In this document: in pieces, positions 3,830 through 34,087 of the stretch
Numbering within the stretch: position 1 is the stretch's first letter
How the letters are laid out: each line of letters begins with the position of its first letter
Source of the DNA: Blautia sp. MSJ-9
Lineage (GTDB): Bacteria > Bacillota > Clostridia > Lachnospirales > Lachnospiraceae
Length of the DNA: 64,000 nucleotides
Assembly (NCBI RefSeq): GCF_018919065.1
Contig: NZ_JAHLQG010000006.1
Coordinates: 1-64,000, forward strand
Direction of reading: 5' to 3'
Made by a program: the position numbers and the translations under genes
Notes under the pieces: model-generated
What the model was told of the DNA's origin: nothing
What the model saw: only the letters and a program-made list of their open reading frames with translations
Database searches by the model: none

Positions 3830-3918
3830 TAAATATATGTTTGAAGAAAATTGATGGATATAATCGAAAATAAAGATAAAAAATATACATAATACCCAAA
3901 ACGAAGGATAGAATAAGT

Positions 3919-5265
3919 ATGACGAAGGAAAATAATTTAAAATTTGACAGCGAAAGAGAGTATACGTATATCTCTTCGAATAATCTGACAGGGATCAAAT
4001 CAGAGGCCCTTTCCCCCGAAGAATTGATAAAATTTATGGAAAATGGCTTTATTTGCCGCACATTCAAAGATACAATTGCGCAGTTTTATACAGAATATGA
4101 AAAAGAAAAGAGAGAAAAATGCGAAGAACAGGAATATAAAGGAGATGTAAAGCGTTTTTTATCAGGCAAGTTATCGGATATGGCGCAAATTTCTTATGAC
4201 AGTATGTCACGGAATGTTAGGAACTGGATGAATGGAGTGAATGTACCACACAGAGAACAGCTCTTTCAGATGTGTTTTGCATTGGAACTGGATGAAAGGC
4301 GGGCCAGTCAGCTTTTGGCGAGTATTTCGGATACAGGAATTCATTATCGCAACCCGGAAGAACTGGTTTATGCATTTGGCCTGAGGCAAAGAATGAGTTA
4401 TGGCGAAACGCTTCAGCTGAAAAATGAAGTTATGGAACAGTATGCTCAGAACAGGAAACCATCTTCATCATCAAAAGAGAATAAAGAAGTAAAAGTTTAT
4501 ACCCGCCAGATTCAACGGAAGTTTCTGGATGAGGTACATACAGTAGAGGATTTGAAACAGTTTTTTGATGAAAACAACGCTGTGTTTGGAAAAATCCATG
4601 AGGCTGCTTATGATGAATTTATGAGAATGATAAAACTTTTGCAGAATCCAGAAGCAGACTTTGAGGCTTATTGGATGCAGTATTTAAAAGAAAATACAAA
4701 GTACACGGAAGAAGAGAGACAAAAAGAAGTCGAGAAAATCAAGCAGGATCTGAAGAAAAAAAGCGTTGAAGAAGTTATAGAAGAGTATTTGCGTATGTAT
4801 GTTCCGCAGAATACATCCAGAAAAAACACCAGTGAGGGAAAACGAAATTATACATATCTGCAGCGGGTAATCAAAAAGAACTGGCCGAGTGAAAGCACAA
4901 TCTCGAAAATGAAAACAAAGGAGATGGATGTCAGCAGAAAGGTACTGCTTTTGCTATTTCTGCTGACAGAAGAATTTGAAGTATCAGATCTGATAAACAG
5001 AGAAAAAGAAGATGATATTTTTTCAGATCTTGATGACGACGATGAATATCTCAATGATTTAGGTGAAATGGAAGATGCAAATGATCGAATGGAGAGAAGG
5101 ATTGTACAGCTGAATCTGTTTCTTGAGGCATATGGCATGAACCAGCTTGACCCGGGCTCTGCGTTTGACTGTTTTGTACTGTATGCGCTGAAGGCAAGCT
5201 ATGACGGGGCAGAGGACAATATGGGAGAACGTTTTAAATCGGTATTAAAATTACTGTTTGAGTAA
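3919..5265 (+). CDS. cytosolic protein with HTH-like segments, possible regulator
   Basis: This encodes 448 residues with no signal peptide or membrane segment. Residues ~88-133 (ISYDSMSRNVRNWMNGVNVP, then a LFQMCFALELD stretch) look like an XRE-type helix-turn-helix. Residues ~318-362 (WPSESTISKMKTKEMDVSRK, then a leucine run) look like a second unit of the same kind. A charged coiled-coil-like middle and a very acidic stretch (DLDDDDEYL, ~375-390) are also seen. It has its own promoter and stands first in the kinase/FHA locus, so it could be its regulator or a kinase substrate. The family was not recognised; the DNA-binding idea is inference. Confidence 0.6.
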   Translation: MTKENNLKFDSEREYTYISSNNLTGIKSEALSPEELIKFMENGFICRTFKDTIAQFYTEYEKEKREKCEEQEYKGDVKRFLSGKLSDMAQISYDSMSRNVRNWMNGVNVPHREQLFQMCFALELDERRASQLLASISDTGIHYRNPEELVYAFGLRQRMSYGETLQLKNEVMEQYAQNRKPSSSSKENKEVKVYTRQIQRKFLDEVHTVEDLKQFFDENNAVFGKIHEAAYDEFMRMIKLLQNPEADFEAYWMQYLKENTKYTEEERQKEVEKIKQDLKKKSVEEVIEEYLRMYVPQNTSRKNTSEGKRNYTYLQRVIKKNWPSESTISKMKTKEMDVSRKVLLLLFLLTEEFEVSDLINREKEDDIFSDLDDDDEYLNDLGEMEDANDRMERRIVQLNLFLEAYGMNQLDPGSAFDCFVLYALKASYDGAEDNMGERFKSVLKLLFE

Positions 5266-5477
5266 TAACGTAACGCATTTTAAAAAAGTAATTGTTCTGT
5301 ACTCTAGTGCGTCGACAAGCTGATATACTGACAGAATAGCAGACTGAAGAACAGTTGCCAGAAGACATCTAGTTCAGAAAGACTCCAGGGGCGGAAAAGA
5401 AATGCGGATACTGAAACAGGACAAAGATATACTTGAGACATTAAGAATGTCAACATAGATATGAGGAGGTGTCCTGC

Positions 5478-8411
5478 ATGGGAAATATACGCAGTTTGAG
5501 AAAGAATGGAGATAAACTGATTCTTGGAGGGTGTACATATACAATAAAGGATGTAGAGGGATGCGGAGGAAATTCGGTCGTATATCATGCAATATATAAC
5601 GATAATCTGAACAGAGAACTGCAGCATGAGGTGTTGATCAAGGAACTTTATCCTTATCATCCAAGAGGCGGCATATATAGAGATGAGAACGGAAATATCA
5701 GTTATGTTTCAGAAGCAGAAGAATATATGCAAAACTGCAAAATGCGTTTTAAACAGGGAAATGAGATTAATCTCCGGTTATTACAGACTCTTCCTTCGCA
5801 GATTTCAGGAAATGTAAATTCGTATGAAGCATATGGGACATATTATTCGGTTTTGACAGTTCATGGAGGACAGAATCTGGAAAATGTTCTGGAAACTACG
5901 GATTCACTGTCTCTTCGCGAAGCGGCAAAGATCATGGAGAAAGTTCTGGATGCAGTGGAAATTTTTCATGAAAATGAAATGCTTCATCTGGATATCAGTC
6001 CGGACAATATTATTCTTTTGCCGGAACAGGCATTTTTGATAGATTATAACAGTGTATGGAGTGTATCGGATAAACATAACGGCGTTTTTTCTTTTTGTGA
6101 AAAAGAGGGTTATTCAGCTCCGGAAATCCGTCTTTGTGATGCTGGAAAAATCAGCTATGCAACAGATATTTATTCTGTATGTGCGGTGTTTTACAGAATT
6201 CTTACAGGAAATAAACTGACAGATAATGAAATTATACGAAACGGATTAAAAAGCAGCTTACGGGCAAATCTGAGTATTTTTCGGGGAGAACCTAACAGTG
6301 CGGTATTAAAGGCGGCACAGATCGTGATAAAAGGCTTACAGATGCTTCCGGAAAAAAGATACCAGAGTGTTGCGGCTCTGAGAAGAGAGTTTGATGAACT
6401 CTTACTTAGAATTGAAGGAAAAGGCATTTCACACAGTGCAATCTGGGAAAGCAGCAGAAATATTTACAGAAAAACAGTGCATTGTGATACATCTTATATA
6501 TTACAGGATATTCAAAATTCTTACATGATGAAGCAGATATCCGGAAATGAATTATATTCTGATCTTAAAGACAGAAGTAAAGTCCTTTTAAAGGGTTCCG
6601 GTGGTATGGGAAAAACAAGATTCATGGAAGAATTATGGAAAAACAATGTAAGACAATACCGAGAAGCGGAGCCGGTTGTCTGGTTTGTTCCATTAAAAGA
6701 ATATCAGTACACAGCAAATGAAACGGCATTTATCAGAAAACATCTGTTAAAACATCTTTGTTTTTCTACGGAGAGTATAGGAACAGGCGAATCTCTTCAC
6801 GAACTGGAACAGTTTTTTAACGGAAAACGCCGGGGAAATGTAAATATTATTTTTCTTCTGGATGGATTAAATGAGACCGGGACAGACAGAGAGAAACTTT
6901 TAAGAGAAATTGAAGAATTAAGTGCAAAAGAGGGAGTCAGTGTTCTGGTTACAGAGAGATCAGATGAAGTTCTGACGTACGGACTTCAGGGATTTCAAAG
7001 TGTAGAATTGCTTCCACTGGATCAGGAGAAGGTTCGGCAGGAAACCGAAAAAATGCAAATTCCTTATCCGGCAGATAAAAGAATGCAAAATCTTCTGGGA
7101 AATCCTATGATGTTAGAGCTTTATGCAAAAGTCTGCGGTCTCAGAAAGGATTCTTCTGAGACACAGGAAGAAATTATGAGTATCAGCAGTCCGGAACAAC
7201 TGATCCAGCTTTATCTGGGACAGTTGTTGAAGTATCAATTGCGGGTACATTCCGGGAAACCTGGAATACAGTTATGCAGTAAGTATATTCTTAATCATAT
7301 GCTGCCGGACATTGCCGGGGAAATGAAGAAGAAAAATAAAACATTACTGTCGGTAGATGAAGTATATAAAATAGCCCAAAAGAATTATTCTAATCTATAT
7401 AAGAAAGAATTTTGCAAAACTTTTCCGGAATATCTTGGAAAGTCCAGAATCATGCTGGACAGAATTGCAGATGCATCGGAATGGTTTGATTTTGCAATAG
7501 AGGAACATCTTACAGGAGAGCTTGGGTTGCTGGTGAAGACAGGAAACGGATATTATGGACTGGTTCATGATAATTTTATTAAATATCTGACAGAGGCTTC
7601 CGAGCATAACAGAACGGTATACAGAAAAAGGCAGAGACGTGGCACGATTTTAAAAGGAACGGCAATAACTGGTGCCTGCGTAATCCTGAGCCTGTCTGTT
7701 ATCTGCATTTTACATAAAACAGGAATTATTTCTGATGATAAGGGACCTTCCGAAGAGGAACAGCGGATTCTGAAACGTGCGGCTGCATGTATGCAAATGA
7801 ATTTAGGAATTTTCAGCGGATTTGTCAGCGATCAGAAAAGCGTTCTGGAGATGGACGAGATTGAAGGGGTATTAAATCAGGATTCAACGGCAGTTGAGGA
7901 AATGGAAAACAGGATAGATATTGCCCTTTCAAAAGACCTGGATAATTACTCAGAACTGAAACCAGAAGTGAGAGATGGTCTGATCGAGATTTCAGATTTT
8001 CCAATAACAGAATACGTAGATTTATGTGATGCGCCTGTAGATATGTCAGATTTTATGGAATCGGCGTTGGTGGATTTGAAGGAAAAAATGTGCAGTCAAG
8101 ACAGTGTTTACAGGGAATATGAAGACAGAAAAGCACTTGTAGAGGTCTATGAAGGATATCTGAATGCATATACGGAATTTATTTTTTATGAACTGGATTA
8201 TGTATCAAATTTTTTACTTCCTGAACAGGCAGCAGAAATTCTGGATGCCAACCAGTATTCCAGGGTTTTTCGCAATTATTTTAAGACTGTGCAGATTGGA
8301 AATCAGGATATTGAAAGCATCAGACGCGGTATGGAAAGTGCTGATAAGAAACTGCGGGCGGCAAAAGCTGAGATGCTGAGCTGGAACTATAATATAGAAG
8401 GTGTGAAATAA
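5478..8411 (+). CDS. membrane Ser/Thr kinase-like protein fused to a NACHT/STAND-type NTPase
   Basis: This encodes 977 residues. The start is the ATG at 5478 with AGGAGGT 7 bases before it. Residues ~12-310 are a Hanks-type kinase fold: loop GCGGNSVVY, Lys in VLIKELYP, catalytic loop HLDISPDN (Asp172). The usual DFG is replaced by DYN and HRD by HLD, so activity may be altered or lost. Residues ~365-600 form a P-loop NTPase with Walker A GSGGMGKT (373-380) and Walker B IIFLLDGLNE (Asp462), of NACHT/STAND style. A membrane segment at ~727-747 is followed by ~230 residues, probably outside. STAND ATPases act as ligand-triggered switches; here the ligand is unknown. Confidence 0.85.
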   Translation: MGNIRSLRKNGDKLILGGCTYTIKDVEGCGGNSVVYHAIYNDNLNRELQHEVLIKELYPYHPRGGIYRDENGNISYVSEAEEYMQNCKMRFKQGNEINLRLLQTLPSQISGNVNSYEAYGTYYSVLTVHGGQNLENVLETTDSLSLREAAKIMEKVLDAVEIFHENEMLHLDISPDNIILLPEQAFLIDYNSVWSVSDKHNGVFSFCEKEGYSAPEIRLCDAGKISYATDIYSVCAVFYRILTGNKLTDNEIIRNGLKSSLRANLSIFRGEPNSAVLKAAQIVIKGLQMLPEKRYQSVAALRREFDELLLRIEGKGISHSAIWESSRNIYRKTVHCDTSYILQDIQNSYMMKQISGNELYSDLKDRSKVLLKGSGGMGKTRFMEELWKNNVRQYREAEPVVWFVPLKEYQYTANETAFIRKHLLKHLCFSTESIGTGESLHELEQFFNGKRRGNVNIIFLLDGLNETGTDREKLLREIEELSAKEGVSVLVTERSDEVLTYGLQGFQSVELLPLDQEKVRQETEKMQIPYPADKRMQNLLGNPMMLELYAKVCGLRKDSSETQEEIMSISSPEQLIQLYLGQLLKYQLRVHSGKPGIQLCSKYILNHMLPDIAGEMKKKNKTLLSVDEVYKIAQKNYSNLYKKEFCKTFPEYLGKSRIMLDRIADASEWFDFAIEEHLTGELGLLVKTGNGYYGLVHDNFIKYLTEASEHNRTVYRKRQRRGTILKGTAITGACVILSLSVICILHKTGIISDDKGPSEEEQRILKRAAACMQMNLGIFSGFVSDQKSVLEMDEIEGVLNQDSTAVEEMENRIDIALSKDLDNYSELKPEVRDGLIEISDFPITEYVDLCDAPVDMSDFMESALVDLKEKMCSQDSVYREYEDRKALVEVYEGYLNAYTEFIFYELDYVSNFLLPEQAAEILDANQYSRVFRNYFKTVQIGNQDIESIRRGMESADKKLRAAKAEMLSWNYNIEGVK

Positions 8412-8530
8412 GAAAAATATAAGTAAGAGAGAAAAAACAGAACGTGATGAAAAACTATTTTATAAGACTTGTCAGAGGAAAATCACAGTAAGGGATACCT
8501 AAGATATGATATGAAAAAAGGAGGAGCATA

Positions 8531-9295
8531 ATGAAAAAGAAAATATATATAGTTACATTGTGTTTAATGGCAGGAAGCCTGGCAGGAGTCTGCCCGGTAT
8601 CTGCAGAAGAAGGCTATCAGAGCATAGTAGAAGAATATAAAAAGATATTTCTAACCATGGATGATGTAAGTTATCAGTATGATTGTGTGCTTGCTGCAGT
8701 AGGTGATTATCTTGATGAGAAAACAGATCATTCAGATACTGTAGAAACCGTAAAAAACATTACAGATACACTTAAAGAGAAAAAAGACAGTCTGGAAGAG
8801 TATACACTGGATGATAAATTGTCAGATCTTCTGGAAGAATACGGAATACTTCCAGAAGAATTTGAAGCATTTGGAAGAAGTCAGGAAGATGAGTTTACAG
8901 ATACAATATCCGATATTGAAGAATTGACAGAGTATCTGGAGTATGCGGAAGACTCAGAGGATGACTATGACAGGCTTACAGTGGCATATGAAGAGTACAA
9001 AGATATTCAGGATTATATGAAAGGCGTCAATTATTATACAAACTTTAACTACTGGTTTGCAGAATGGGATGAAGAAATGACTGACTATGTACAGAAAGAA
9101 GTTACACCTGAGATAAAGTCCTGTATCTCAGAAGATTTTGTATGGGAAAATGACAGAGATGTTGTTGAGCGTAAGGCTATGCGGTACATGGATGACCTTG
9201 AAGATTACATAGAAGTTCTTGCAAAACATACGGGAGAAGCACGGGAAAGAAAACTGGAGATTGAGCAGGAACTGGGAAGACAGCTGGGAGAATAA
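8531..9295 (+). CDS. exported protein, short member of a three-gene family
   Basis: This encodes 254 residues with a signal peptide (MKKKIYIVTLCLMAGSLAGV, cut after VSA). The mature part is acidic and mainly helical. It resembles the N-terminal half of the two 493-residue proteins at 27125 and 28739, sharing SIVEEYKKIFL-like and YQYDCVL near the start and NFNYWFAEWDEEMTDYVQ further on. It lacks the two C-terminal FSF-x-P-x-SW domains of those paralogues. The ATG at 8531 has AAAAGGAGGA before it. The function is unknown. Its place between two kinase genes suggests an outside partner of the kinase ectodomains. Confidence 0.75.
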   Translation: MKKKIYIVTLCLMAGSLAGVCPVSAEEGYQSIVEEYKKIFLTMDDVSYQYDCVLAAVGDYLDEKTDHSDTVETVKNITDTLKEKKDSLEEYTLDDKLSDLLEEYGILPEEFEAFGRSQEDEFTDTISDIEELTEYLEYAEDSEDDYDRLTVAYEEYKDIQDYMKGVNYYTNFNYWFAEWDEEMTDYVQKEVTPEIKSCISEDFVWENDRDVVERKAMRYMDDLEDYIEVLAKHTGEARERKLEIEQELGRQLGE

Positions 9296-9335
9296 AGGCA
9301 GAAAAAACATAGTCATTACAAAGGAGGAGAATGGC

Positions 9336-11750
9336 ATGACTTTCGACAGGTGTTTTGGGTGTATGCAAAAGCTGAAAGAACCAGATGAAGTTTGTCCGCA
9401 TTGTGGGTTTGATATTGCACAATATAATGAAGCAGAATTTGCGTTAAGACCGGGTACGATTTTGCATGGAAGATATGTTATTGGGAAAGTTCTGGGAAAA
9501 GGTGGATTTGGTATCACTTATATTGGATATGATATGTCCCTGGATATCAAAGTGGCAATTAAAGAGTATTATCCAGAAGGATTTGTAGGAAGAGATGCCA
9601 GACAGTCTGCAAAACTTAGCTGGTATAGCACCAGAACTGGTGTCCAGAGCGCTATAAAAAGCAGGGAGAGCGTGATAAAAGAAGCCCGTAATATGGCAAA
9701 GATTGATACGCTGCCTACTCTGGTAAGAGTAAGGGATGTACTTGTGGCAAATGAGACGGCATATCTGGTTATGGATTATGTTGAGGGCGAGACATTAAAG
9801 AATCTGGTGATAAACAGAGGAACACTTTCTTATGAGGAAGTGTGTACATATTTATTTCCAATCATGGAAGATTTGTCAAAGATTCATGAAAAAGGAATCA
9901 TTCATAGGGACATCAGTCCAGATAATATCATGATTGAAGCAAATGGAAGAATGCGACTTTTGGATCTTGGAGCAGCAAAAGATTTGTATAAAGTGAATGA
10001 GAATGGAGAAGTTCCAGCTTCCACACAGATGGTGCTGAAACATGGCTTCAGCCCTATGGAACAGTACAGAACACATGGAGAAATTGGACCATGGACAGAT
10101 GTTTATGCAATGACGGCAACTATTTACTATCTGATGTCGGGAACAGTACTTCCTACACCTATGGATCGTCTGGATAAAGAGCAGGAAGAAAAAGTTCGGG
10201 GAATGATAAACAGACTGTCTATGCCAGAAAAAGCAAGAGAAGGAATGAAAAAAGGACTTGCTATTCTTAAAGAAGACAGAATCAGTAGTATGAGTGACCT
10301 CAAAAAGTATTTGTGTCCAGAAAAAGTGGAGCTAAAACCGAAATTAGAAGTAATTCCCCAAATTGAATCAAATTCTAAATTAATACTAAAATCTGAACAA
10401 AAATATAAAGATAAAACAAAATTAAATTTAAAAAAGTTAAAGAAATGGTCGTTTTTTTTGTTAGGTGCAATTTTGGTAGGAAGTATGACTCTATTTGGAA
10501 CCATGTTGTTTCATAAAAGGGCAGATAAATACTATAGTAAGGGAAAATATGAGCAAGCTTTGAATGCTTATCGGCAGGAAAAAAATATAGATGGCGTGAA
10601 AAAAACATTGAAAATGATTTATAAAATAGCTGGATGCTATAAATCTGGAATAAGTGGATATGAAAAAAATGAAGAAGAGGCTATCAAATATTATAAACTT
10701 GTAGCAGAAGATGAAAATGCAGAAAGTCTTGGAGGATATGCATGTAATTTCTTGGGAGAAATTATGGCTAAAAATGAAATAGAAGAAGATGATACAGAGG
10801 CCGCAACGTGGTTTGAAAAAGCAATCAAAAAAGGATATTTTGATGCGGCAAATAATCTTATATATATGTATAAAAATGGAAAAGAAGTTCCACAGGATAA
10901 TAAAAAAATAATAGAACTTTTAGAACAGTCAGCAAATAGTGGAAATAGTACAGCAATGTACAATATGGGGAGAATTTATGGATATGGTGAATGCAATCAG
11001 GAAGTAGATCTTAGGAAATCGCTAAATTGGTTTAAAATAGCAGAAGAAAATAATTTTGAGGATGCGAAAGATGATATTGAGTATGTATTACAGAAAATGT
11101 ATGATACGGCAAAGGATTATCGAAAAGGAACTAATGGATGTGAAAAGAATGAGGAAGAAGCCATCAAATATTATAAACTTGTAGCGGAAGATGAGAGTGC
11201 AGAGGAGGAACTGCAAAGTCTTTCATGCTATTATTTGGGATATATTATGGCTAACAATGAAACAGAAGAAGATGATGCAGAGGCTGCAAGGTGGTATGAG
11301 AGGGCAATTGAGAAGGGAGATACTGATGCAATGAATAATCTTGCAGATATGTATAAAGATGGAAGAGGTGTATCACAGGATTATAAAAAAGCTATGAAAC
11401 TTTATGAGCAGGCAATTGAAAAGGGAAATGCTGTTGCAAAGAATGATCTTGCCTATATGTATATGTATGGAGAGGGTGTGGATAGAGATTATAAAAAAGC
11501 TATGGAGCTTTATAAGCAGGCAGCAAATGATGGAGTTAGTACTGCAATGGCTAATATAGGATGGATTTATGAATGGGGTCTATGTGGTCAGCAAAAAGAT
11601 TTAAAAAAAGCATTAAAGTGGTACAAAAAGGCGCAAGAAAACGGTTATGACAACGCAGAAGAACATATTCAGTACCTACAATCGGAGTTGGAATCCGGTA
11701 GTAATACATCGGACTCCGAATCACAGAAAAGTAAATTAGTTCTGGAATAG
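9336..11750 (+). CDS. zinc-ribbon Ser/Thr kinase with membrane segment and outside Sel1 repeats (copy A)
   Basis: This encodes 804 residues. The ATG at 9336 is set by AAGGAGGAG; upstream in-frame codons overlap the previous gene. A zinc ribbon (Cys6, 9, 20, 23) leads into a Hanks kinase: GKGGFG, Lys76 in VAIKEYYP, HRDISPDN (Asp192), DLG in place of DFG. A membrane segment lies at ~371-391. The outside part has about seven Sel1-like repeats (patterns such as AMNNLADMYKDGRGV). Sel1 repeats bind proteins or peptides, so this is probably a receptor kinase. Its kinase half is nearly identical to the next two genes, which points to recent tandem duplication. Confidence 0.9.
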   Translation: MTFDRCFGCMQKLKEPDEVCPHCGFDIAQYNEAEFALRPGTILHGRYVIGKVLGKGGFGITYIGYDMSLDIKVAIKEYYPEGFVGRDARQSAKLSWYSTRTGVQSAIKSRESVIKEARNMAKIDTLPTLVRVRDVLVANETAYLVMDYVEGETLKNLVINRGTLSYEEVCTYLFPIMEDLSKIHEKGIIHRDISPDNIMIEANGRMRLLDLGAAKDLYKVNENGEVPASTQMVLKHGFSPMEQYRTHGEIGPWTDVYAMTATIYYLMSGTVLPTPMDRLDKEQEEKVRGMINRLSMPEKAREGMKKGLAILKEDRISSMSDLKKYLCPEKVELKPKLEVIPQIESNSKLILKSEQKYKDKTKLNLKKLKKWSFFLLGAILVGSMTLFGTMLFHKRADKYYSKGKYEQALNAYRQEKNIDGVKKTLKMIYKIAGCYKSGISGYEKNEEEAIKYYKLVAEDENAESLGGYACNFLGEIMAKNEIEEDDTEAATWFEKAIKKGYFDAANNLIYMYKNGKEVPQDNKKIIELLEQSANSGNSTAMYNMGRIYGYGECNQEVDLRKSLNWFKIAEENNFEDAKDDIEYVLQKMYDTAKDYRKGTNGCEKNEEEAIKYYKLVAEDESAEEELQSLSCYYLGYIMANNETEEDDAEAARWYERAIEKGDTDAMNNLADMYKDGRGVSQDYKKAMKLYEQAIEKGNAVAKNDLAYMYMYGEGVDRDYKKAMELYKQAANDGVSTAMANIGWIYEWGLCGQQKDLKKALKWYKKAQENGYDNAEEHIQYLQSELESGSNTSDSESQKSKLVLE

Positions 11751-11859
11751 TGCTATGGAAATAACACGAAAAATGTGGGTGGATATAGTATAAAATTCTG
11801 TCTAAAGAAAATATGTAGATTAATTAAAAATACAGTTGCTACAGAGGGAGGCGGAGGTA
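11697..11859 (+). repeat. duplicated gene end plus leader, copy 1
   Basis: The last ~50 bases of the copy A kinase gene and the following ~110 non-coding bases (from TGCTATGGAAATAACA to the GGAGG motif) match 14419-14593 closely, at the end of copy B. The leader contains CTGTCTAAAGAAAATATGTA in both. This marks the unit of tandem duplication as gene plus upstream region. Confidence 0.75.
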
Positions 11860-14472: not shown

Positions 14473-14593
14473 TGCTATGGAAATAACATGAAAAATGGGG
14501 TGGGATATAGTATAGAATTCTGTCTAAAGAAAATATGTATAAAAAATATATAGATTTATCAAAAATACAGTTGTTACAAAGGAGGCAGAGGTA
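14419..14593 (+). repeat. duplicated gene end plus leader, copy 2
   Basis: This is the second copy of the stretch at 11697-11859, with a small insertion near AAAAATATATAGA (about 14539-14551). It supports tandem duplication of kinase genes and gives each copy its own leader and ribosome binding site. Confidence 0.7.
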
Positions 14594-16237: not shown

Positions 16238-16251
16238 TAGGAGGAAATAAT

Positions 16252-17568: not shown

Positions 17569-17591
17569 AAAAGAAAAGGAGACGAATAATT

Positions 17592-19036: not shown

Positions 19037-19042
19037 TTTTGA

Positions 19043-20254: not shown

Positions 20255-20257
20255 ATT

Positions 20258-20287: not shown

Positions 20288-20312
20288 TAAATAAAACCAG
20301 AAAGGTTATAAA

Positions 20313-21035: not shown

Positions 21036-21043
21036 ATAAAAGT

Positions 21044-22399: not shown

Positions 22400-22444
22400 T
22401 GTTGTTTTAGCACTGGTGACGACTTGACAGGAAGGTAGGGTTTT

Positions 22445-23218: not shown

Positions 23219-23220
23219 AA

Positions 23221-24876: not shown

Positions 24877-24878
24877 GA

Positions 24879-26195: not shown

Positions 26196-26246
26196 CTTTT
26201 AAATAGAAAATAGTGATATTCCAAATATAACCAGAAGAATGAATAT

Positions 26247-26357
26247 GAAAAAGGGTTGCGTTTAAGAACTTAAACTATGTTCATCAAAAGGAAGGGGTGA
26301 GGACGAATACAGAGAAAATACCTGAAACAGTAAAATAATGGATGTAAGAAAGGATGG
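26247..26357 (+). repeat. conserved leader before secreted gene, copy 1
   Basis: This ~110-nt stretch, from GAAAAAGGGTTGC to AAGAAAGGATGG, is closely matched in order and length by 30249-30361 before another secreted-protein gene. Shared blocks include AAAAGGAAGGGG-like, GAAACAGTAAAA-like and AAGAAAGGATGG, the last acting as ribosome binding site. It may be a common 5' leader. Confidence 0.6.
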
Positions 26358-26365
26358 GAAATGGT

Positions 26366-27094
26366 ATGAAAAAAATGTTAAGAAAACGTGCAATGGTTTT
26401 AGCGTTAGTTTTCAGTATGTTAGCAGGTGTATTTGGATTCACAGAAAATGCGTATGCGAAAGCTTATTCGTGGATGGATACTGCAACCCTGCTTCCGGCA
26501 GAAACAGCCATGGGAGGTGTGTTCACCAGAACAGGAGAAAAAATTTATTATATCTCTGTTCCTGAAACTATGGATATTAATTTATGTGTTGGAGTTCCCG
26601 GAACAAAAACAGCAGGTGTGTTGATTTATGGCAGCAACGGAAAAACTCTGAAATCATTTTACGGTAGTAAACAGTGGAGTTATTCCAAGAAGAACGGAAT
26701 TAACTTCTTTGAATACAGTGCAAGATTTTCAAAAGGTGTGTATTATATTGGAATTAAAAATTTTGGAAGTATTTCCAAATATGCTTTAACATATTCTGCT
26801 AAACTTGCCAAAAAAGTAAATTTAAAGAATTTAAAGAGATATTCATCAACTTCAACGATAATTACCTGGACAAAACTTAGTTCCGTGACAGGTTATGAAG
26901 TTTATCGTGCGACATCTTTAAATGGAACTTATAAACGTATAGCGACTGCATCATCCTCCAGAAACTATTATATTGACAGGTCCATAACAAATGGAAGGAG
27001 CTATTATTATTTTGTCAAAGCATACAGAATGATTAATGGAAAGAAAATTTATTCATATAGCTCAGCGATAGGAAGAATAACCTTATCAAGATGA
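26366..27094 (+). CDS. secreted protein with C-terminal FnIII-like domain
   Basis: This encodes 242 residues. The ATG at 26366 is chosen because the ribosome binding site and spacing match the homologous leader at 30371. A signal peptide (~1-30, ending NAYA) precedes a ~120-residue beta-rich domain (IYYISVPETMDINLCVGVPG, KSFYGSKQWSYSKKNGINFF, YYIGIKNFGS) that resembles bacterial pre-peptidase-type domains. An FnIII-like module follows (~160-240: VTGYEVYRATSLNGTYKRIA). The same FnIII type occurs in the protease at 31343. No catalytic residues are seen. It is probably a surface or secreted binding protein. Confidence 0.75.
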   Translation: MKKMLRKRAMVLALVFSMLAGVFGFTENAYAKAYSWMDTATLLPAETAMGGVFTRTGEKIYYISVPETMDINLCVGVPGTKTAGVLIYGSNGKTLKSFYGSKQWSYSKKNGINFFEYSARFSKGVYYIGIKNFGSISKYALTYSAKLAKKVNLKNLKRYSSTSTIITWTKLSSVTGYEVYRATSLNGTYKRIATASSSRNYYIDRSITNGRSYYYFVKAYRMINGKKIYSYSSAIGRITLSR

Positions 27095-27124
27095 CAGACA
27101 CGCAGAGTATGGAGGAAATAGCAG

Positions 27125-28606
27125 ATGAAAAAGAAAATAGGTTTATTTATTATCTGCCTGACAATGTCAGGCAGTATAAATATAATGGGAAGTTCTTCTG
27201 TGTCTGCACAGGAGGATTATCAGACGATAGTGGAGGATTATAAAGAACTTTTTCTGTCTCTGGATCAGATAAACTATCAATATGACTGTGTACTGGAAAC
27301 TGTAGGAGATTATATTGAGGGAAAGGTAAATCTTTCGGAGACAGAAGAGAAAGTAAATGATACGTTAAGTATAATTATGGAAGAAAAAGAGAAAAATTAT
27401 AGCTATCGTAAATTAGAAGATGAACAGATTAGTTTGCTGGAAGAATATGGAATTAATGCAGAAGAGTATGAGACATTTGGAAACAGTCTGAGAGAAGAGT
27501 ATGTATATATTATATGTAATCTTGCGGAGCTGGCAGATGATTTGTACTATGTTAAGAAATCAGAATCAGGATATGAAACACTGGTGTCTGATCAAAAAGA
27601 ATATAAAGAATTACAGGAGCTTAAAAAAGAATATCATTATTATAGAAACTTTAATTACTGGTTTGCTGATTGGAATGAAGAAATGACTGCCTATGTGCAG
27701 GATCAGGTTTCGCCGGAATTGAAATCCTTTATTTCCGGAGATTTTGTATGGGAAAAGGATAAGGATATTGCAGAATGTAAGGCGATGGACTACATGGACA
27801 ATTATGAAGCAGGAATGCAGCAACTGTCTGAGAATAAGAAAGAGGTAGAAGAAAAGAGTCCTGAAGAAGATATAAAGACGCAGAAGAAGATTTTTGAAAC
27901 AGAAGAATTTTCATTTGAAATTCCAGATTCCTGGGTAAATGGATATTACAGCGGAACAGGAGGAGAAACGGAAGCTTTTTATTTCAGCTTTTCTGATAGA
28001 AATATTTCTTACAAAAGTGACGGTGAGTTTATGCGCCTGATCCTGACCAGCAATGAAGAATTTGAAAAGGAAGATGGATTTGAATATACAAAGTTAGATG
28101 GTGAAACGGTTTTGGGAAGAAGTATTTATATGGCCGTTAATACAAAACATTCAGAGATGGATCCGGAGGACAAAAAATTCGAACAGGAATATCTGGAGAA
28201 ACGTTCAGATTGTGACAAAATTCCAGATACCCTGAAATTGAAGACGGATTTTTCATGTAGAAAAATAGAAAATAATGATTACAGTTTTTATTTGCCGAAA
28301 GCATGGGAGGGAAATGTAATTATGATCCCCAGAAAAGGTAAAACTTGTACTAGTTATGCCTTTTATCATAAAAAAAGCCTTTCTTCCGGCGGAGGTCTTC
28401 TTTTAAGTATAGTACCCAGCAAAACAGGAGAGAGACCGGACCTTTTAGATGGAGCCAGAGTACTGGGAGAAGAAAAAAATCGACAGATAATGTACTGGAT
28501 TGGAGGACCTACGGGGGTAACGTATGGAGAAGCAGAGAGGGAGGATTATTTTAAAATGAAGTTTGCTGCTACAACAATTATGGCGACATTCCAGGTGAAA
28601 AACTAA
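27125..28606 (+). CDS. exported protein, long member of the three-gene family
   Basis: This encodes 493 residues. A signal peptide (~1-28, ending SVSA) precedes a helical N-terminal half (~30-235) homologous to the protein at 8531 (DYQTIVEDYKELFLSLDQIN, NFNYWFADWNEEMTAYVQ). The C-terminal half has two related domains, one starting EFSFEIPDSW (~260) and one NDYSFYLPKAW (~385). Each has the FSF-x-P-x-[SA]W start and a beta-rich body. Neither matches a named family that I can state with confidence. The next gene encodes a close paralogue, so the pair arose by tandem duplication. The protein has no anchor and is probably released or bound to a surface partner. Confidence 0.75.
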   Translation: MKKKIGLFIICLTMSGSINIMGSSSVSAQEDYQTIVEDYKELFLSLDQINYQYDCVLETVGDYIEGKVNLSETEEKVNDTLSIIMEEKEKNYSYRKLEDEQISLLEEYGINAEEYETFGNSLREEYVYIICNLAELADDLYYVKKSESGYETLVSDQKEYKELQELKKEYHYYRNFNYWFADWNEEMTAYVQDQVSPELKSFISGDFVWEKDKDIAECKAMDYMDNYEAGMQQLSENKKEVEEKSPEEDIKTQKKIFETEEFSFEIPDSWVNGYYSGTGGETEAFYFSFSDRNISYKSDGEFMRLILTSNEEFEKEDGFEYTKLDGETVLGRSIYMAVNTKHSEMDPEDKKFEQEYLEKRSDCDKIPDTLKLKTDFSCRKIENNDYSFYLPKAWEGNVIMIPRKGKTCTSYAFYHKKSLSSGGGLLLSIVPSKTGERPDLLDGARVLGEEKNRQIMYWIGGPTGVTYGEAEREDYFKMKFAATTIMATFQVKN

Positions 28607-28738
28607 AACGGGACAAGGTTGGCACGATAATATGGGAGATATTGATGTATAATAAATAGATATAATACGTGCTAATTTACAGAAAATTCACACATTGATT
28701 TTGAATGTTTTATATGAAAACTTGTGGAGGGAAAAGAG

Positions 28739-30220
28739 ATGAAAAAGAAAATTTATCTGACAGCTATTTGTATAACTGCAATCGGCAGCACAATGACAAA
28801 TTATTCTGTATCTGCGCAGGATGATTTTCAAAAAGTAGTGGAAGACTATAAAACTTTTTTCCTTCCATTGGACCAGGCTAGTTATCAATATGATTGTGCA
28901 CTGGATACAGTAGGCGATTATCTTCAGGGAACTGTAAATCTTTCAGAGGCAACAGAGACAGTAAATAAAGCAATAAATTCACTGATGGAGAGTAAGGAAC
29001 AAAATATTGGTTATAGTTACTTAAATGAAGAACAGAAAAATTTATTTGAAAAATATGAAATCAGTGCGGACGAATTTAACGAATTTGGAATTAGCCGGGA
29101 ATATGAAGAGATATGTATGATATCGAATCTTGCCGAATTATCCGATGATTTATGCTATGTAGAAAAATCTGATTCGGGATATGAAACACTGGTGTCTGAT
29201 CAGAAAGAATACAAAGAAATGCAGGAATTCAGGAAAGGATATCATTATTATAAAAATTTTAATTACTGGTTTGCCGGCTGGAATCAGGAAATGACTGATT
29301 ATGTACAGGAACAGGTGACGCCAGAACTGAAGTCATGTATTTCTGAAGAATTTACATGGGAAAATGATAAAGAGGCAGTGGAACGTAAGGCGACGGAATA
29401 TATGGACAAGTATGAAGAGTTGGCGCAGCGTTTATCAGAGAGTAAAGAAGCAAAAAAAGAAAAATCCCAAAGTGATTCAGAATTACAGGATGAAATATTT
29501 GAAACGGATGAATTTTCATTTAAGATTCCAGACTCATGGAAAGGCGGATATTCCAGTGGTTCAGGAGGAAAACTTGGAACTTCTTATTACTATTTTGTGG
29601 ATGAAAATTTTTCTTATAGTGATGGTGTTCTCATGCATTTGATTCTGACTTATGACGAAGAATTTCAAAGAGACGAAGAATTCGAATATACAAAGTTAGA
29701 TGGTGAGACTATTTTTGGCAGAAGTATTTATATGGCGGTTAATACGAAACATCCTGAGCTGGCTTCGAGAGATGAGGAAAAAGAACGGAAATATCTGGAA
29801 AAACTTGCAGGATGTAAAGAAATTCTAGAGACGCTGAATTTAAAAACAGATTTTCCAAATAGGAAAATAGAAAATGACAATTACAGTTTTTATCTGCCGG
29901 AATCCTGGGACGGAAATGTAATCATAAGATCTCAAAAAAGTAAAAGATATACAAAATATCTGTTTTATCAGAAAAAAACATTTTTTCCACAGGGAAATGG
30001 ATTTTTTTTGAGAATTGCTGTGTGTGAATGGGGATATGGGCCAGATGACGCGGATGATACACAATTGACCGCAGAGGATGAGGATGCACAGGTCATGTTC
30101 TGGATAGCCGGACCTACGGATGTAACCTGTACAACAGAGGACAAAGAAGTACGTGCAGAATATGAAAAAATGAAAAGCGATAGCCAGACAATTATAGCAT
30201 CGTTTCAGGTAAAAAAATGA
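28739..30220 (+). CDS. exported protein, second long member of the three-gene family
   Basis: This encodes 493 residues, with the ATG at 28739 behind TGGAGGGAAAAG. The plan is the same as the previous gene: signal peptide (ending SVSA), helical half with YQYDCALDTVGDYL and NFNYWFAGWNQEMTDYVQ, then two beta-rich domains starting EFSFKIPDSW and NDNYSFYLPESW. The pair stay alike through FGRSIYMAVNTKH and the C-terminal FQVKK. The ~118-bp gap before it holds no clear terminator. The function is unknown, and its retention in three forms within the kinase/FHA locus suggests a dedicated role. Confidence 0.75.
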   Translation: MKKKIYLTAICITAIGSTMTNYSVSAQDDFQKVVEDYKTFFLPLDQASYQYDCALDTVGDYLQGTVNLSEATETVNKAINSLMESKEQNIGYSYLNEEQKNLFEKYEISADEFNEFGISREYEEICMISNLAELSDDLCYVEKSDSGYETLVSDQKEYKEMQEFRKGYHYYKNFNYWFAGWNQEMTDYVQEQVTPELKSCISEEFTWENDKEAVERKATEYMDKYEELAQRLSESKEAKKEKSQSDSELQDEIFETDEFSFKIPDSWKGGYSSGSGGKLGTSYYYFVDENFSYSDGVLMHLILTYDEEFQRDEEFEYTKLDGETIFGRSIYMAVNTKHPELASRDEEKERKYLEKLAGCKEILETLNLKTDFPNRKIENDNYSFYLPESWDGNVIIRSQKSKRYTKYLFYQKKTFFPQGNGFFLRIAVCEWGYGPDDADDTQLTAEDEDAQVMFWIAGPTDVTCTTEDKEVRAEYEKMKSDSQTIIASFQVKK

Positions 30221-30248
30221 GACATAACTGCAAAACCGGAAAGGATAC

Positions 30249-30361
30249 GAAAAAGGGGTTGCAGACGTGAGATAAAATATGTGTAACAAAAAGAAAGGGG
30301 CGAAAGAAACAAAGAAGAAACCCGGAAAACAGTAAAAACAGCAGAACTTAAGAAAGGATGG
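30249..30361 (+). repeat. conserved leader before secreted gene, copy 2
   Basis: This is the second copy of the ~110-nt leader described at 26247-26357. It runs from GAAAAAGGGGTTGC to AAGAAAGGATGG and is followed after 9 bases by the ATG at 30371. The genes downstream of the two leaders are not homologous in their main domains, so the leader has been kept or copied separately. Confidence 0.6.
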
Positions 30362-30370
30362 AAAAACAGT

Positions 30371-31318
30371 ATGAAGAGAGCAGAAAGAATTTATCAGAAA
30401 AATATTTGGAAGATTATGGCAATCATAGTTGTATTTATGACTTCTTGCATAGCAATTTCGTTTAAAGCTCATGCAGAAGTAAAGGCATATGATCCAATTA
30501 TTGTGCAGGGCTATAATTGGATGTATTTATCTGACAGTGATATTGCTGATATGCCTTTACAGGTATTGTGCTATGGAAAAAATGAAATTTATGCACAGCA
30601 TGGACGTAAATTTGCATCACAGGAATTGCAGGATTATTTTAACAGTCAATACTGGTATTATGGAACAGTTGAACCGGGTGATTTTTCTGAAAGTATGTTA
30701 AATGAATATGAACTTGCAAACGTTAAACTTCTGGCAAAAAGAGAAAAGGAACTCGGTGGTTATAAGTTGGATGTAGCAGGATACAGTTATCAGCCTGTAA
30801 AAGATTATATAGATAAGACAAAAAATAAAATGTTTGGTGGAGTTACTTACGAAAGTACAGATGCCCTTTCTGGTATTCCTTACAAAGTGAGTGTTTCTAA
30901 AGGGTACCTGGCATTAAGAAGCGACCCGGAATATAATGATTCAAATGAGAAGGGTCAGCTATATACAGGGGATAAAGTCTTTTTACAACAGGGAACGGAT
31001 ACTCAGTATTGGTATGTATATGCACCGAAATATCAGGATTACGGATATGTTAACAAGGATTATCTTGTAAAAGATTCAAATGCTTCAAATACTTCCACAT
31101 CTTCATACAATTTTCCGGTAATCTATAAAACGGTAAAAGTAGATAAAGGGTACCTGGCATTAAGAAGCGAAAAATCTTTTAACTCAGGTAATGAGAAAGG
31201 TGAGCTGTATACAGGCGATGTAGTAGAAGTTCGTGACAGCAGTGACCCGACTTATTGGCTCGTATATTCATCAAAATATAATGATACAGGATATGTAAAC
31301 ATGAATTATTTGCATTAA
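30371..31318 (+). CDS. secreted protein with YARHG domain and two SH3-like repeats
   Basis: This encodes 315 residues. An N-terminal signal segment (~1-35, IMAIIVVFMTSCIAISF, cut near AHA) is followed by a YARHG domain (~60-120: LCYGKNEIYAQHGRKFASQE, then YFNSQYWY), an extracellular module found in Firmicutes that is thought to act near the cell wall. Two SH3-type repeats follow, at ~175-240 and ~255-315. Each has KGYLALRS, a GxLYTGD turn and a DxGYVN end. Such repeats often bind peptidoglycan or proteins. It is probably wall-associated and lies 24 bp before the protease gene in the same transcript. Confidence 0.85.
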   Translation: MKRAERIYQKNIWKIMAIIVVFMTSCIAISFKAHAEVKAYDPIIVQGYNWMYLSDSDIADMPLQVLCYGKNEIYAQHGRKFASQELQDYFNSQYWYYGTVEPGDFSESMLNEYELANVKLLAKREKELGGYKLDVAGYSYQPVKDYIDKTKNKMFGGVTYESTDALSGIPYKVSVSKGYLALRSDPEYNDSNEKGQLYTGDKVFLQQGTDTQYWYVYAPKYQDYGYVNKDYLVKDSNASNTSTSSYNFPVIYKTVKVDKGYLALRSEKSFNSGNEKGELYTGDVVEVRDSSDPTYWLVYSSKYNDTGYVNMNYLH

Positions 31319-31342
31319 ACAGGTGAAGTTCGGGAGAAACGG

Positions 31343-34087
31343 ATGAAAAAGAATAAGAACAGTTATAAAAAGATTTTCACAGTATTTTTGTGCCTGACTA
31401 TGTGTTTAAGCACAGAATCTGTGGTATATGCGCAGGAGGAGTTCGAATCCGGTACTTCTGATACTTTTATATTTCAGGATAATGAAGATATGGTAGAAGA
31501 ATTTCAGGATAAATCTTCCAATGAAGAAGTGGATTGTTTTGAAACAGGAGAAAGTGCAACTGTGTTTGGAACTGGGGATGAAGAAAGCCAAGAAGATGGA
31601 GAAATCCGATACATAAAAGGCCGTCCATTGACAGAAGAAGAACGGGAAAAAGAACTGGAACCATTTAATTATCCTACATTTACAGAAAAGGTACCGTTTA
31701 TTGGAAGTAACCTGGATATTGATACTTATCAGCTATATCCATCTAAATATGATGCAAGAGAAAAGGGGATTATCACTTCGGTTAAAAATCAATACCAATC
31801 TCCGATGTGTTATGCATTTAGTCTGACTTCAATTGCTGAAACATCATTACTTGCGCAGGGAAAAGGAACTTATGATCTTTCAGAAGCGCATCTGGGATAT
31901 TTTTTTGGAAACAGAAGTAATGATCCACTTGGGAATACACCAAATGATAAAAATGTTAGAGTTAATCCTTACGCATGGAACGGTAATACCCGATTAGGTA
32001 CTATTTTTCTCACAACCTACTCTGGATTGACAACGGAAGATGATATGCCTCTTCCGAATGAATTGAAATATTCTGGTGAAACTTCAGCTCAAATTTCATC
32101 TGATAAAGAATATCATGCGGTTGCATACTTAAGAAATGCGATTTTTTCTGACTATTCTGTGAATAGGATGAAACAGTTGCTTATAGAAAAACAAGCTGTA
32201 AAAATCAGTATGAATCGAAAAGATGAATACTATAATCCTGATACAGCTGCATATAGTAATCCTGTTTATGAAGATACGACAAATCATGCAGTGGTGGTAG
32301 TGGGATGGGATGATAACTATTCTTCAAAAAATTTCATTGCATCTTCTGAGGTTACTTCGGATGGAGCATGGATTGTAAAAAACAGCTGGTCAAATAGCTG
32401 GGGTGACAATGGATATTTTTACATTTCCTATGAAGATAAAAACATTCGAGAACTAATAGCTGTAGATATGGAAAAAGATACAGAATATGAAAATAATTAT
32501 TTTTATGATGGTTCAACAGGATATGGTAGTTGGAGCCTTTCTCCTGGTCAGTCTATGGCAGTGGCTTTTAACGCGAAAGCAGGAAATGGAAAAGCAGAAA
32601 TTTTAGGAGAAGTAAATATAATTACATTTAGTGATGATGCTTGTTACAGTATACAAATTTATGCAAATTTAAGCGATATACAGAATCCTACAAGCGGCTC
32701 TCCAGTATATGAAGTTCCGTATGAAGCATATCAGTCACTGGCAGGAATAAAAACAGTAAGAATACCAGAAGTAGTATTACAACAGGGAAGCAAGTATTCG
32801 GTTGTAATTACAAATACTGGTGTCAATAAATTCAGTATTGGACGTGAAGTGGGTAATATCGCTTCCTGGTATTACACAGAAGCCGGAAGCAACATTGGTG
32901 AAAGCTTTTTCAGAGCTTCTGCAGAAGGAAGCTGGAGAGATTTATATGATTTATATTCATCTCCGAGAATCAAAGCTCATACTAAAACCCTTGATTATGC
33001 AGTAACTCCCGTGCTTTCTTTTACAACAGATAAAACAGTTCTGAAGTCTGGCGAAAGTGTCAAGACAAAAGCAGCCATAACACCAGATTCTATGAGTTAT
33101 ATTAATCTGTTATATGAAAGCAGCAATCCGGAAGTGGCAACAGTAGATGAAAATGGCGTGATCAATGGCAAAAAGAATGGAACAGCAGTAATTACCTGTA
33201 AAAGCACAGATTCATCACAGCTTTTATCTACTGTTACAGTTAAAGTTAAAGCAATGCAGGTTTCCGGATTTCGTGCAGAGCCTAAAGCATACAATAGAAT
33301 TGTTCTTTCATGGGAACGAGTGGAGGACGCAAAAGGTTATACGATTTACAGAGCTGAAAAAGGAAAAAAATCAAAGAAACTGGCAGATGTAAATGCCAAG
33401 GCGGTTAAATATCAGGATACTTCTGTTAAAACAGGAACCACATACGTATATACAATAATTCCTTTTAAAATAAAGAATGGAAAGAAAGAGTATGGTAAAA
33501 AATCAGACCAGGCAGAAGCAAAGAGTGCTCTTGATATTCCGAAATTTACAGTGAAGGCATTATCAGATGGATATAATCAGATAAAATGGAAAAAAGTTTC
33601 TGGAGTAACGGCATATAATATTTTCCGAAAGAAACCTGAAGGAGAAAAATGGGAATTTCTAAAAGCAGCATCATCATCTGAGACGAAATATAATGATAAG
33701 AATCTTGCATCCGCAACATCCTATCAATACTTGATACAGGCATACAGAGAGGTTTCAGGAAGCAAAGTTTACAGCAGATATAATGTAAGCCCGGCTATAA
33801 AGACGGCTCCTGCTGTTACTAAAATTAACTCTATAAAAAATGAAAGTGATGGAATTTATATCCGTTGGAATGTACAGAAGAGTTGTGACGGCTATCAGAT
33901 TCTGCGAAAAACAAAAAATAATTCCTGGAAACAGATTGCTAAGATTGATGATGCAAAGAAGAGTTCCTGGACTGATGAAACTGCCGAAAAAGGTGAGTCA
34001 TATTATTATGCAGTGAAAGCATTTGTAAAACAGACGAATGGGACTACATATGGCAAATATGAGGCATCTTCTGTTATTAAGAGATAA
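31343..34087 (+). CDS. secreted papain-family (C1) protease with Big2 and FnIII modules
   Basis: This encodes 914 residues. A signal peptide (~1-28) and an acidic pro-region (~30-130) precede a C1 peptidase domain (~135-375). The catalytic Cys is ~156 in NQYQSPMCYAFSLTSIAE, His ~314 in TNHAVVVVGWDD and Asn ~346 in VKNSWSNSWGDNGYF. A beta domain follows (~385-545), then a Big2 Ig-like domain (~560-630, SNPEVATVDENGVINGKKNG). Three FnIII-like modules end the protein (~640-914, each with a GYTIYR-, AYNIFR- or GYQILR-type strand). There is no LPXTG anchor. It is the last gene of the locus and ends in a terminator. It probably cuts extracellular or surface proteins. Confidence 0.9.
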   Translation: MKKNKNSYKKIFTVFLCLTMCLSTESVVYAQEEFESGTSDTFIFQDNEDMVEEFQDKSSNEEVDCFETGESATVFGTGDEESQEDGEIRYIKGRPLTEEEREKELEPFNYPTFTEKVPFIGSNLDIDTYQLYPSKYDAREKGIITSVKNQYQSPMCYAFSLTSIAETSLLAQGKGTYDLSEAHLGYFFGNRSNDPLGNTPNDKNVRVNPYAWNGNTRLGTIFLTTYSGLTTEDDMPLPNELKYSGETSAQISSDKEYHAVAYLRNAIFSDYSVNRMKQLLIEKQAVKISMNRKDEYYNPDTAAYSNPVYEDTTNHAVVVVGWDDNYSSKNFIASSEVTSDGAWIVKNSWSNSWGDNGYFYISYEDKNIRELIAVDMEKDTEYENNYFYDGSTGYGSWSLSPGQSMAVAFNAKAGNGKAEILGEVNIITFSDDACYSIQIYANLSDIQNPTSGSPVYEVPYEAYQSLAGIKTVRIPEVVLQQGSKYSVVITNTGVNKFSIGREVGNIASWYYTEAGSNIGESFFRASAEGSWRDLYDLYSSPRIKAHTKTLDYAVTPVLSFTTDKTVLKSGESVKTKAAITPDSMSYINLLYESSNPEVATVDENGVINGKKNGTAVITCKSTDSSQLLSTVTVKVKAMQVSGFRAEPKAYNRIVLSWERVEDAKGYTIYRAEKGKKSKKLADVNAKAVKYQDTSVKTGTTYVYTIIPFKIKNGKKEYGKKSDQAEAKSALDIPKFTVKALSDGYNQIKWKKVSGVTAYNIFRKKPEGEKWEFLKAASSSETKYNDKNLASATSYQYLIQAYREVSGSKVYSRYNVSPAIKTAPAVTKINSIKNESDGIYIRWNVQKSCDGYQILRKTKNNSWKQIAKIDDAKKSSWTDETAEKGESYYYAVKAFVKQTNGTTYGKYEASSVIKR

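Follow-up and report, generated by a model that had tools for sequence, protein, structure and literature searches.

What task could be served by a run of Ser/Thr kinases, PP2C phosphatases and FHA domains encoded side by side with membrane proteases? The question is raised by locus A, a block of 20 genes at positions 3919-34087 of the window analysed here, which spans 64,000 nucleotides of Blautia sp. MSJ-9 (assembly GCF_018919065.1, contig NZ_JAHLQG010000006.1, positions 1 to 64,000 of the forward strand). Overall, locus A is probably a conserved phospho-signalling cassette that was acquired horizontally: its genes recur together in other Clostridia, and the whole block is missing from the same site in relatives of the same genus. 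Its receptor kinases may create phosphothreonine (pThr) sites on which HtrA-like, VWA and PrsW proteins dock through their FHA tails, with PP2C phosphatases resetting the system, a reading of the sequence to which we give an even chance. The first-pass annotation of this DNA had proposed a membrane phospho-hub; it had made no mention of a NACHT domain, of a separable module at 3919-9295, of the segment missing in relatives or of a second block, locus B.

Gene content and predicted topology of locus A

All 20 genes lie on the + strand, with intergenic gaps of -77 to 203 bases; the -77 value arises because a start call was over-long, the kinase open reading frame (ORF) open from 9219 more likely beginning at 9336. 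The domains previously counted on this strand were all recovered: the kinase domains (five) and FHA-type domains (seven) scored over the Pfam cut-offs, and the two PP2C phosphatases were matched at 18290 and 20313. Pkinase was matched by the ORFs at 5469, 9219, 11836, 14594 and 19043, with intact catalytic residues at five inspected positions in all five, and FHA by those at 16234, 17592, 19043 (C-terminal), 21044, 22445, 23215 and 24879. Topology was predicted from hydropathy alone. The cytosol-membrane-outside order claimed for the kinases was recovered for four of them (5469, 9219, 11836 and 14594) but not for 19043, which has no transmembrane (TM) segment. Likewise, the reverse order claimed for most FHA proteins (signal peptide, outer part, TM, FHA) was found for 16234, 21044, 22445 and 23215, but not for the TM-less 17592 and 19043; the 24879 protein is polytopic with its FHA domain at the C-terminus. 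The two PP2C proteins (18290, 20313) are also without a TM segment.

The locus opens with O1 (3919..5265), a kinase-adjacent member of an unnamed 448-aa protein family, followed by a Ser/Thr kinase-NACHT NTPase with a TM segment at residue 730 and an ectodomain (5469..8411; Pkinase 1.1e-19, NACHT 4.3e-9) and by EXP (8531..9295), a secreted-type family with an N-terminal hydrophobic segment and no Pfam match. Three receptor kinases come next, two with a zinc ribbon, kinase, TM and Sel1 repeats (9336..11750, and 11860..14472, whose ORF is open from 11836) and a third (14594..16237) placed by DNA identity and TM prediction on the same chassis as the 11860 kinase, with another ectodomain. They are followed by a signal peptide-ectodomain-TM-FHA protein (16234..17568; FHA 3.1e-11, TM by hydropathy), a cytosolic zinc ribbon-FHA adaptor (17592..18293; FHA 6.9e-5, motif C..GH..C..C), PP2C phosphatase 1 (18290..19036; PP2C_2 6.3e-17), a cytosolic kinase-FHA fusion (19043..20254; Pkinase 2.9e-31, FHA 2e-5) and PP2C phosphatase 2 (20313..21035; PP2C_2 2.9e-12). 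The membrane proteins beyond them comprise an HtrA-like serine protease predicted to lie outside, with TM and an inner FHA domain (21044..22399; Trypsin_2 5e-17, FHA 4.3e-12; triad H76 D138 S238), whose family profile matched HtrA chains in the PDB; a signal peptide-TM protein with a degenerate FHA domain that has lost the phosphate-binding Arg and Ser (22445..23218); a VWA domain with the residues of a metal ion-dependent adhesion site (MIDAS), predicted outside, joined through a TM to an inner FHA domain (23215..24876; VWA 6.3e-13, FHA 1e-7); and a PrsW intramembrane protease with FHA (24879..26195; PrsW 2.5e-13, FHA 6.2e-20).

Exported-type proteins do follow these signalling genes, as had been noted, but rather than "seven-odd" they number five downstream and one upstream (8531). 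The downstream genes encode a protein with a fibronectin-like C-terminus (26354..27094; domain scan and hydropathy), two EXP-family proteins with an extra C-terminal domain (27125..28606, and 28724..30220, in which hydropathy found no hydrophobic segment over threshold), a YARHG-SH3 protein (30371..31318; YARHG 1.1e-19) and a papain-family protein with Big_2 and fn3-like domains (31343..34087; Peptidase_C1 2.8e-22). The EXP part of the 27125 protein shares 60% identity with 28724 and 48% with 8531. Promoter and terminator scans gave scores inside two standard deviations of shuffles. The sole Rfam match, a THF riboswitch (window 38277-38381, +) preceding the gene for an ECF transporter substrate-binding protein (38468), lies outside locus A.

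Conservation of the cassette and its absence from the same site in relatives

A neighbourhood comparison, on which the first-pass annotation had made its reading depend, showed the genes kept together at most loci, with the full set not present everywhere. In a sample of 397 family genomes, PrsW-FHA was matched in 13 and protease-FHA in 16. Partial matches are kept in these counts, covering just the PrsW part in G164, G256, G274 and G326 and just the FHA part in G346; the loci of the first four were left out of the neighbourhood comparison. Both queries matched together in six genomes (P = 2e-6, partial matches included), with the two genes adjacent or a few kb apart in all six. A scan of named genomes based on a PrsW-FHA alignment and one conserved motif yielded 30 loci, a lower bound. 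Most of them are labelled Lachnospiraceae, others Oscillospiraceae, Ruminococcaceae or other Clostridia, and metagenome assemblies are the main source (the record of L086 is flagged UNVERIFIED_CONTAM); the PrsW gene was missed by the ORF picker in four of the 30. Within flanks of at most 10 kb (some stretches clipped, the shortest 3.3 kb), kinases without FHA were present at 28 of these loci, further FHA proteins at 27, PP2C at 26, kinase-FHA at 17, protease-FHA at 13, VWA-FHA at 11 and O1 at seven.

PP2C genes lay within 10 kb of 15 of 18 protease-FHA genes, and all 14 cassette genomes searched, out of the 23 with a cassette match, possessed at least one at the cassette (two to six PP2C genes per genome). 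At L061, FHA genes were the sole cassette genes within 10 kb on that piece. The complete genome of [Clostridium] asparagiforme DSM 15981 (L092), which has a culture-collection number, possessed a set close to that of locus A, with single-pass FHA, small FHA, kinase-FHA, VWA-FHA, PP2C, protease-FHA, PrsW-FHA and PP2C genes and four full receptor kinases in a row. A similar block is kept in distantly related gut bacteria: in a class-wide sample the PrsW-FHA model matched seven of 391 genomes, the source genome included, and five of the other six were inspected, two with the cassette (G573, G817) and three with a PrsW protein without FHA or cassette (G711, G645, G571). Tandem duplications of PrsW-FHA were seen in Lachnospiraceae assemblies (L081-L084), and papain-type proteins matching the 31343 protein near two cassettes (L091 10193-11515, L096 12372-13793).

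Control of the exported proteins by the hub is a weak part of the earlier proposal. The EXP proteins (8531, 27125, 28724) recur beside O1 and kinases; of the 30 named loci, two have a papain-type domain (L091, L096), two have YARHG (L102 and, as a kinase ectodomain, L080) and none has the FN3 protein.

The two genes that flank locus A, an ECF sigma gene (3174-3680, -) and an AlaX-like gene (34292-35443, +), are adjacent in G001, G448, G469, G023 and G453, that is in all five same-genus relatives with the site inspected; the marker protein was matched in 34 of 60 genus genomes. The alignment with G001 ends at 3723 and restarts at 34286, and therefore about 30.5 kb was gained here or lost there. 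The segment absent in relatives is placed at 3724..34285, with approximate edges; the G448 alignment extends to 3740 on the left side. The GC content of locus A (0.33-0.39 in 2-kb steps) was mostly below that of the remaining window (0.37-0.47). No integrase was named among the locus A genes by domain scan, no tRNA was found in the window, and PrsW-FHA had no match at E 1e-20 in plasmid and phage collections. The upstream sigma pair was ruled out as a component of the system because it is also present in relatives without the island.

The genes at 3919-9295 (O1, kinase-NACHT-TM and secreted EXP) constitute a separable module, found as a stand-alone triad in four other family genomes (G234, G293, G145, G290), where it looks like a separate small signalling system. 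The triads lie at L155 5218-10927, L156 5760-10846, L157 5935-10896 and L158 7328-12057, with the kinase-NACHT protein conserved over its full length. G170 harbored a triad without NACHT adjoining the cassette, and L192 O1 and kinase-NACHT without EXP. EXP occurred in six of the 397 family genomes, each with a copy adjoining O1 and a kinase; four of the six also possessed the cassette (P = 1e-4, with either marker matched in 23/397), on a different contig from EXP in G234 and G290.

O1 is an uncharacterised family to test. A search of 295 genomes of the family gave 23 hits spread over 20 genomes, ten of the hits being weak (E 7e-22 to 3e-11). A Ser/Thr kinase gene stands within 3 kb of 21 of the 23; the others were in G232 and on G170 C31, at a contig end. 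It had no Pfam or NCBIfam match over cut-off, and its best PDB matches were at E 0.29 or worse. A likeness by eye to helix-turn-helix (HTH) regulators was rejected, no HTH appearing among the best 25 of 26 Pfam families (E<=1, 19 members), and homology of EXP to the kinase-NACHT ectodomain was dropped (hhalign probability 34%, E 0.0004). A distant O1 homologue adjoins PP2C and a transmembrane kinase at L200 (source genome, C28; 8215-12182) and L201 (4965-9097), both within the same genus and unlinked to locus A.

Receptor kinases, FHA readers and the proposed circuit

The 11860 and 14594 kinases share 92% DNA identity across 1164 bases, TM included, and no clear similarity beyond. The kinase parts had a median identity of 63% inside a locus (33 pairs) versus 43% across loci (1095 pairs), and 18 of the 33 within-locus pairs carried ectodomains without strong similarity. 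Pfam was run on 48 ectodomains of at least 60 aa, taken from kinases that have a single TM following the kinase domain; kinase-FHA fusions and copies were excluded. Among the best 25 of 31 families, DUF5050 was found in 14, LRR_5 in nine, MORN in five and Sel1 in three, with YARHG, choline-binding, FMN-binding, Big_2 and others as singletons among the matches listed. Neighbouring kinases often bear unrelated ectodomains (e.g. propeller, LRR, MORN, Sel1), as in L092, whose four tandem kinases scanned had DUF5050, LRR, LRR and FMN-binding. Such variable, binding-type ectodomains would fit the earlier suggestion that ligands outside the cell are sensed. The kinase residues themselves were kept in 103-109 of 110 kinases. 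LRR and other repeat ectodomains on kinases are reminiscent of plant receptor kinases. Outer parts differ among bacterial membrane kinases in general (PMC12077195, cited, like the papers below, from the part of its text that was available), and no description of a tandem kinase repertoire within an FHA cassette was found in the literature. One kinase-TM protein (L001 14454-16679) has an outer part that resembles, by eye, a serine beta-lactamase fold.

The pThr-binding Arg/Lys and Ser were kept in 169 of 193 distinct FHA domains (identical rows removed), including 30/30 for PrsW-FHA, 27/27 for protease-FHA and 17/23 for VWA-FHA; six of the seven locus A FHA domains keep Arg and Ser. The PrsW active-site residues, which we take to be EE..K, E, H and H, were kept in 8/8, the triad of the HtrA-like protease was intact in 13/16, and the VWA MIDAS positions were kept in 16-17 of 17. 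The claim that the hub controls surface proteases is thus consistent with FHA tails on HtrA-like and PrsW proteins whose active sites are mostly intact, and both would apparently be under phospho-control.

In the circuit proposed at the outset, transmembrane receptor kinases with a common cytoplasmic chassis and swappable repeat-type ectodomains would sense something outside the cell, and the active kinases would phosphorylate threonines on themselves or on partners. Membrane effectors (HtrA-like, VWA, PrsW and further single-pass proteins) would bind these pThr sites through their cytosolic FHA tails, and the kinase-FHA fusion and zinc ribbon-FHA adaptor would serve as bridges. The effectors, gathered or activated at the membrane, could then carry out local surface and intramembrane proteolysis until the two PP2Cs reset phosphorylation. 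O1, kinase-NACHT and secreted EXP may form an input module, able to exist alone. T6SS PpkA/Fha, PknF/Rv1747 and ArnA/ArnB/ArnC (see next Section) offer precedents by analogy, and the conservation described above lends support to a membrane phospho-hub.

Several observations weigh against this circuit. The protease-FHA loci L075 and L078 lack a kinase and PP2C and indeed any cassette gene within 10 kb of available sequence, and the full set is not obligatory at PrsW-FHA loci, as the counts for protease-FHA (13/30) and VWA-FHA (11/30) show. The 22445 FHA domain is marginal (21.9 vs 20.7 bits cut-off) and without the pThr-binding Arg and Ser, those of 17592, 19043 and 23215 are without the usual His, and six of 23 VWA-FHA domains have lost Arg/Lys, Ser or both. 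The usual FHA Asn is replaced by Tyr in 24/30 PrsW-FHA and 21/27 protease-FHA domains, so that peptide binding may be atypical compared with textbook FHA. Protease domains are degenerate in 3/16; degenerate protease-FHA copies, also present in L061 and L047, suggest scaffold roles. Finally, control could run the other way, from the effectors to the kinases. At L045 15281-18188 (G290), two protease-FHA genes stand in tandem, one with an intact triad and one degenerate.

Locus B (56356..62652, on to ~72679 of the same contig; domain scans) carries in its first part a kinase, an M15-like peptidase, PP2C, zinc ribbon-FHA and VWA-TM-FHA, then an insertion sequence (IS), and after it PP2C, a kinase, FHA-FHA-ABC, membrane-FHA, zinc ribbon-FHA and a kinase. 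The FHA-FHA-ABC protein (contig 66430-68745) has the Rv1747 architecture, of which locus A has none. Locus B is flanked by a GH31 gene and by prepilin-peptidase/TadZ-like genes, which in G001 are ~2.2 kb apart. The IS, between VWA-FHA and the second PP2C (window 62744-63421, contig 63369-64532; L001), consists of a MerR-resolvase and a gene that by eye resembles a transposase, and locus B stands directly upstream of Tad pilus-like genes (TadZ-like at 75403, by eye; TadA-like ATPase in L002).

Three types of loci were distinguished by what accompanies the signalling genes: proteases (type A), FHA-FHA-ABC (type B: locus B, L059, L066) and EssC (type C: L061, L063, L069, L070, L071, L074). L061/L062 mixed them on one contig, with EssC, a degenerate protease-FHA and FHA-FHA-ABC. 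The zinc ribbon-FHA protein is a common adaptor, the C..GH..C..C motif occurring in 30 of 42 small FHA proteins (170-290 aa, copies removed, some fragments) from types A, B and C. Tentatively, and with less confidence than in the circuit itself, these loci can be read as a receptor-kinase repertoire of gut Clostridia, in which a tandem-duplicated kinase-TM chassis with varied ectodomains (LRR, beta-propeller, MORN, Sel1, choline-binding) would act on common FHA-docked effectors through an interchangeable socket (proteases in A, ABC exporter in B, type VII ATPase in C). The shared pThr/FHA plug would tie contact or ligand sensing to the docked surface machine, with O1 as a dedicated kinase partner. 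If so, gut Clostridia would possess a modular outside-to-membrane hub built on threonine phosphorylation, and the control of type VII secretion systems (T7SS), FHA-ABC exporters and FHA-proteases would share one design.

A rather doubtful alternative is that the cassette is an orphaned T7SS control module, working in trans on EssC machinery encoded at another place in the genome. In its favour, kinase, PPM phosphatase, FHA and vWA components occur in changing combinations in T7SS variants c-j (PMC11217815, Garrett et al. 2024, available text). Several loci of the same genus have VWA-FHA beside EssC, sometimes together with small FHA, PP2C and kinases (L061, L063/L064, L069, L070, L071). At L074, from another family of the order, EssC is adjoined by FHA, PP2C and a kinase. 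The source genome itself encodes EssC on contig C49; both EssC proteins checked were confirmed (TIGR03928 over cut-off). Against this, phmmer with the C49 EssC as query found no EssC in the 30 named loci, in L039-L058 or in the window, within the stretches covered, and the VWA proteins of type A fall on one side of a branch, with weak support (77/83). In that tree (23 rows, copies removed, window row long-branched), the three type labels need 3 changes vs 7.5 in shuffles, a result to which related rows also contribute. The C49 locus (L003) is a type VII locus: its EssC, with FHA, stands at the contig end and is accompanied by other proteins, among them a small WXG100-like one. Five small proteins beside its EssC matched only L003, L061, L062, L063 and L069 (phmmer, low sensitivity), and of the two scanned with the WXG100 model one matches just under cut-off.

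It is unlikely that the system serves cell-envelope homeostasis, with kinases watching the wall, proteases in quality control and an anti-sigma cascade driven by PrsW. RsiW is cleaved at site 1 by PrsW (PMC3482391, available text), the HtrA-type fold and the YARHG, SH3 and choline-binding domains would suit such a role, and the genes immediately upstream encode an ECF sigma factor and a membrane protein. That sigma pair is not dedicated to the island, however, being present in relatives that lack it. Moreover, PASTA was absent from the best 25 of 31 families on the 48 ectodomains and not listed for the window kinases, and the strong variation of the ectodomains is unlike a housekeeping sensor. 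A conflict or anti-phage system, in which kinase-NACHT would sense infection and the proteases would be the lethal output, is very unlikely: the NACHT domain, the site empty in relatives and PADLOC kinase-domain matches speak for it, but the PADLOC matches listed for the 10 proteins scanned were to individual models of kinase, PP2C or protease domains and not to whole systems, no nuclease or toxin domain exceeded the Pfam cut-off among the 20 genes, and the receptor ectodomains point outward.

Comparison with known systems

The first-pass annotation had taken as its reference the TerY-P triad, in which a cytosolic vWA, PP2C and kinase occur with Ter genes. Membership of locus A was ruled out, its VWA protein having a signal peptide and a TM segment by hydropathy and no Ter family being listed for the 40 window ORFs scanned; nor is TerY-P the nearest neighbour, because this VWA protein is exported and anchored. 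The literature agreed with the statement that no described system holds the full set, a search by title or abstract start finding no description of an FHA-protease cassette, with subscription papers mostly beyond reach; near relatives have, however, been described.

The closest published relatives are the phospho-modules of T7SS c-j, for which control by threonine phosphorylation has been raised (PMC11217815). Locus A shares with them a kinase with an envelope-side C-terminal region, a PPM phosphatase and separate FHA proteins, as well as the vWA of T7SSc, and thus the combination seen in the c, e and j modules, a membrane kinase and a PPM phosphatase with FHA (e, j) or vWA (c). Membership of a T7SS was rejected because no EssC was found within the stretches covered. 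The outputs of locus A are instead HtrA-like, PrsW and VWA proteins fused to FHA, with several kinases; its vWA is exported and anchored, whereas TscE is cytosolic, and neither trypsin nor PrsW is mentioned in the main text of PMC11217815.

PknF regulates the FHA-ABC protein Rv1747 of M. tuberculosis (PMC3908365, available text), where, as proposed here, FHA is fused to a membrane machine and a neighbouring kinase regulates it. Locus B possesses the same FHA-FHA-ABC architecture, whereas locus A has proteases and VWA rather than an ABC exporter, plus many kinases. In the archaeal ArnA/ArnB/ArnC system, zinc finger-FHA, vWA, a Hanks-type kinase and a phosphatase act via pThr-FHA binding (PMC12852372, available text). 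The likeness is one of architecture, with phosphatases of different types; the Arn proteins regulate archaellum components and include no exported vWA, whereas the VWA of locus A is predicted to be extracellular with an FHA tail. In the type VI secretion system (T6SS), PpkA-Fha docking, in which a kinase-made pThr site is bound by FHA, switches on a membrane machine (PMC3953482, available text), but this system is Gram-negative, and there FHA sits on a different protein from the machine part that it binds. Kinase-PP2C-vWA neighbours also occur in Actinobacteria in an eLife survey of conflict systems (PMC7159879), and PrsW-linked export is described in a survey of polymorphic toxins (PMC3482391), both in the text available.

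Overall, the T7SS c-j modules, Rv1747/PknF and the archaeal ArnA/B/C are closer to locus A than TerY-P. In design the locus is like the modules that control known secretion systems, with proteases at its centre instead, and its newest parts are the O1 family and the receptor repertoire.

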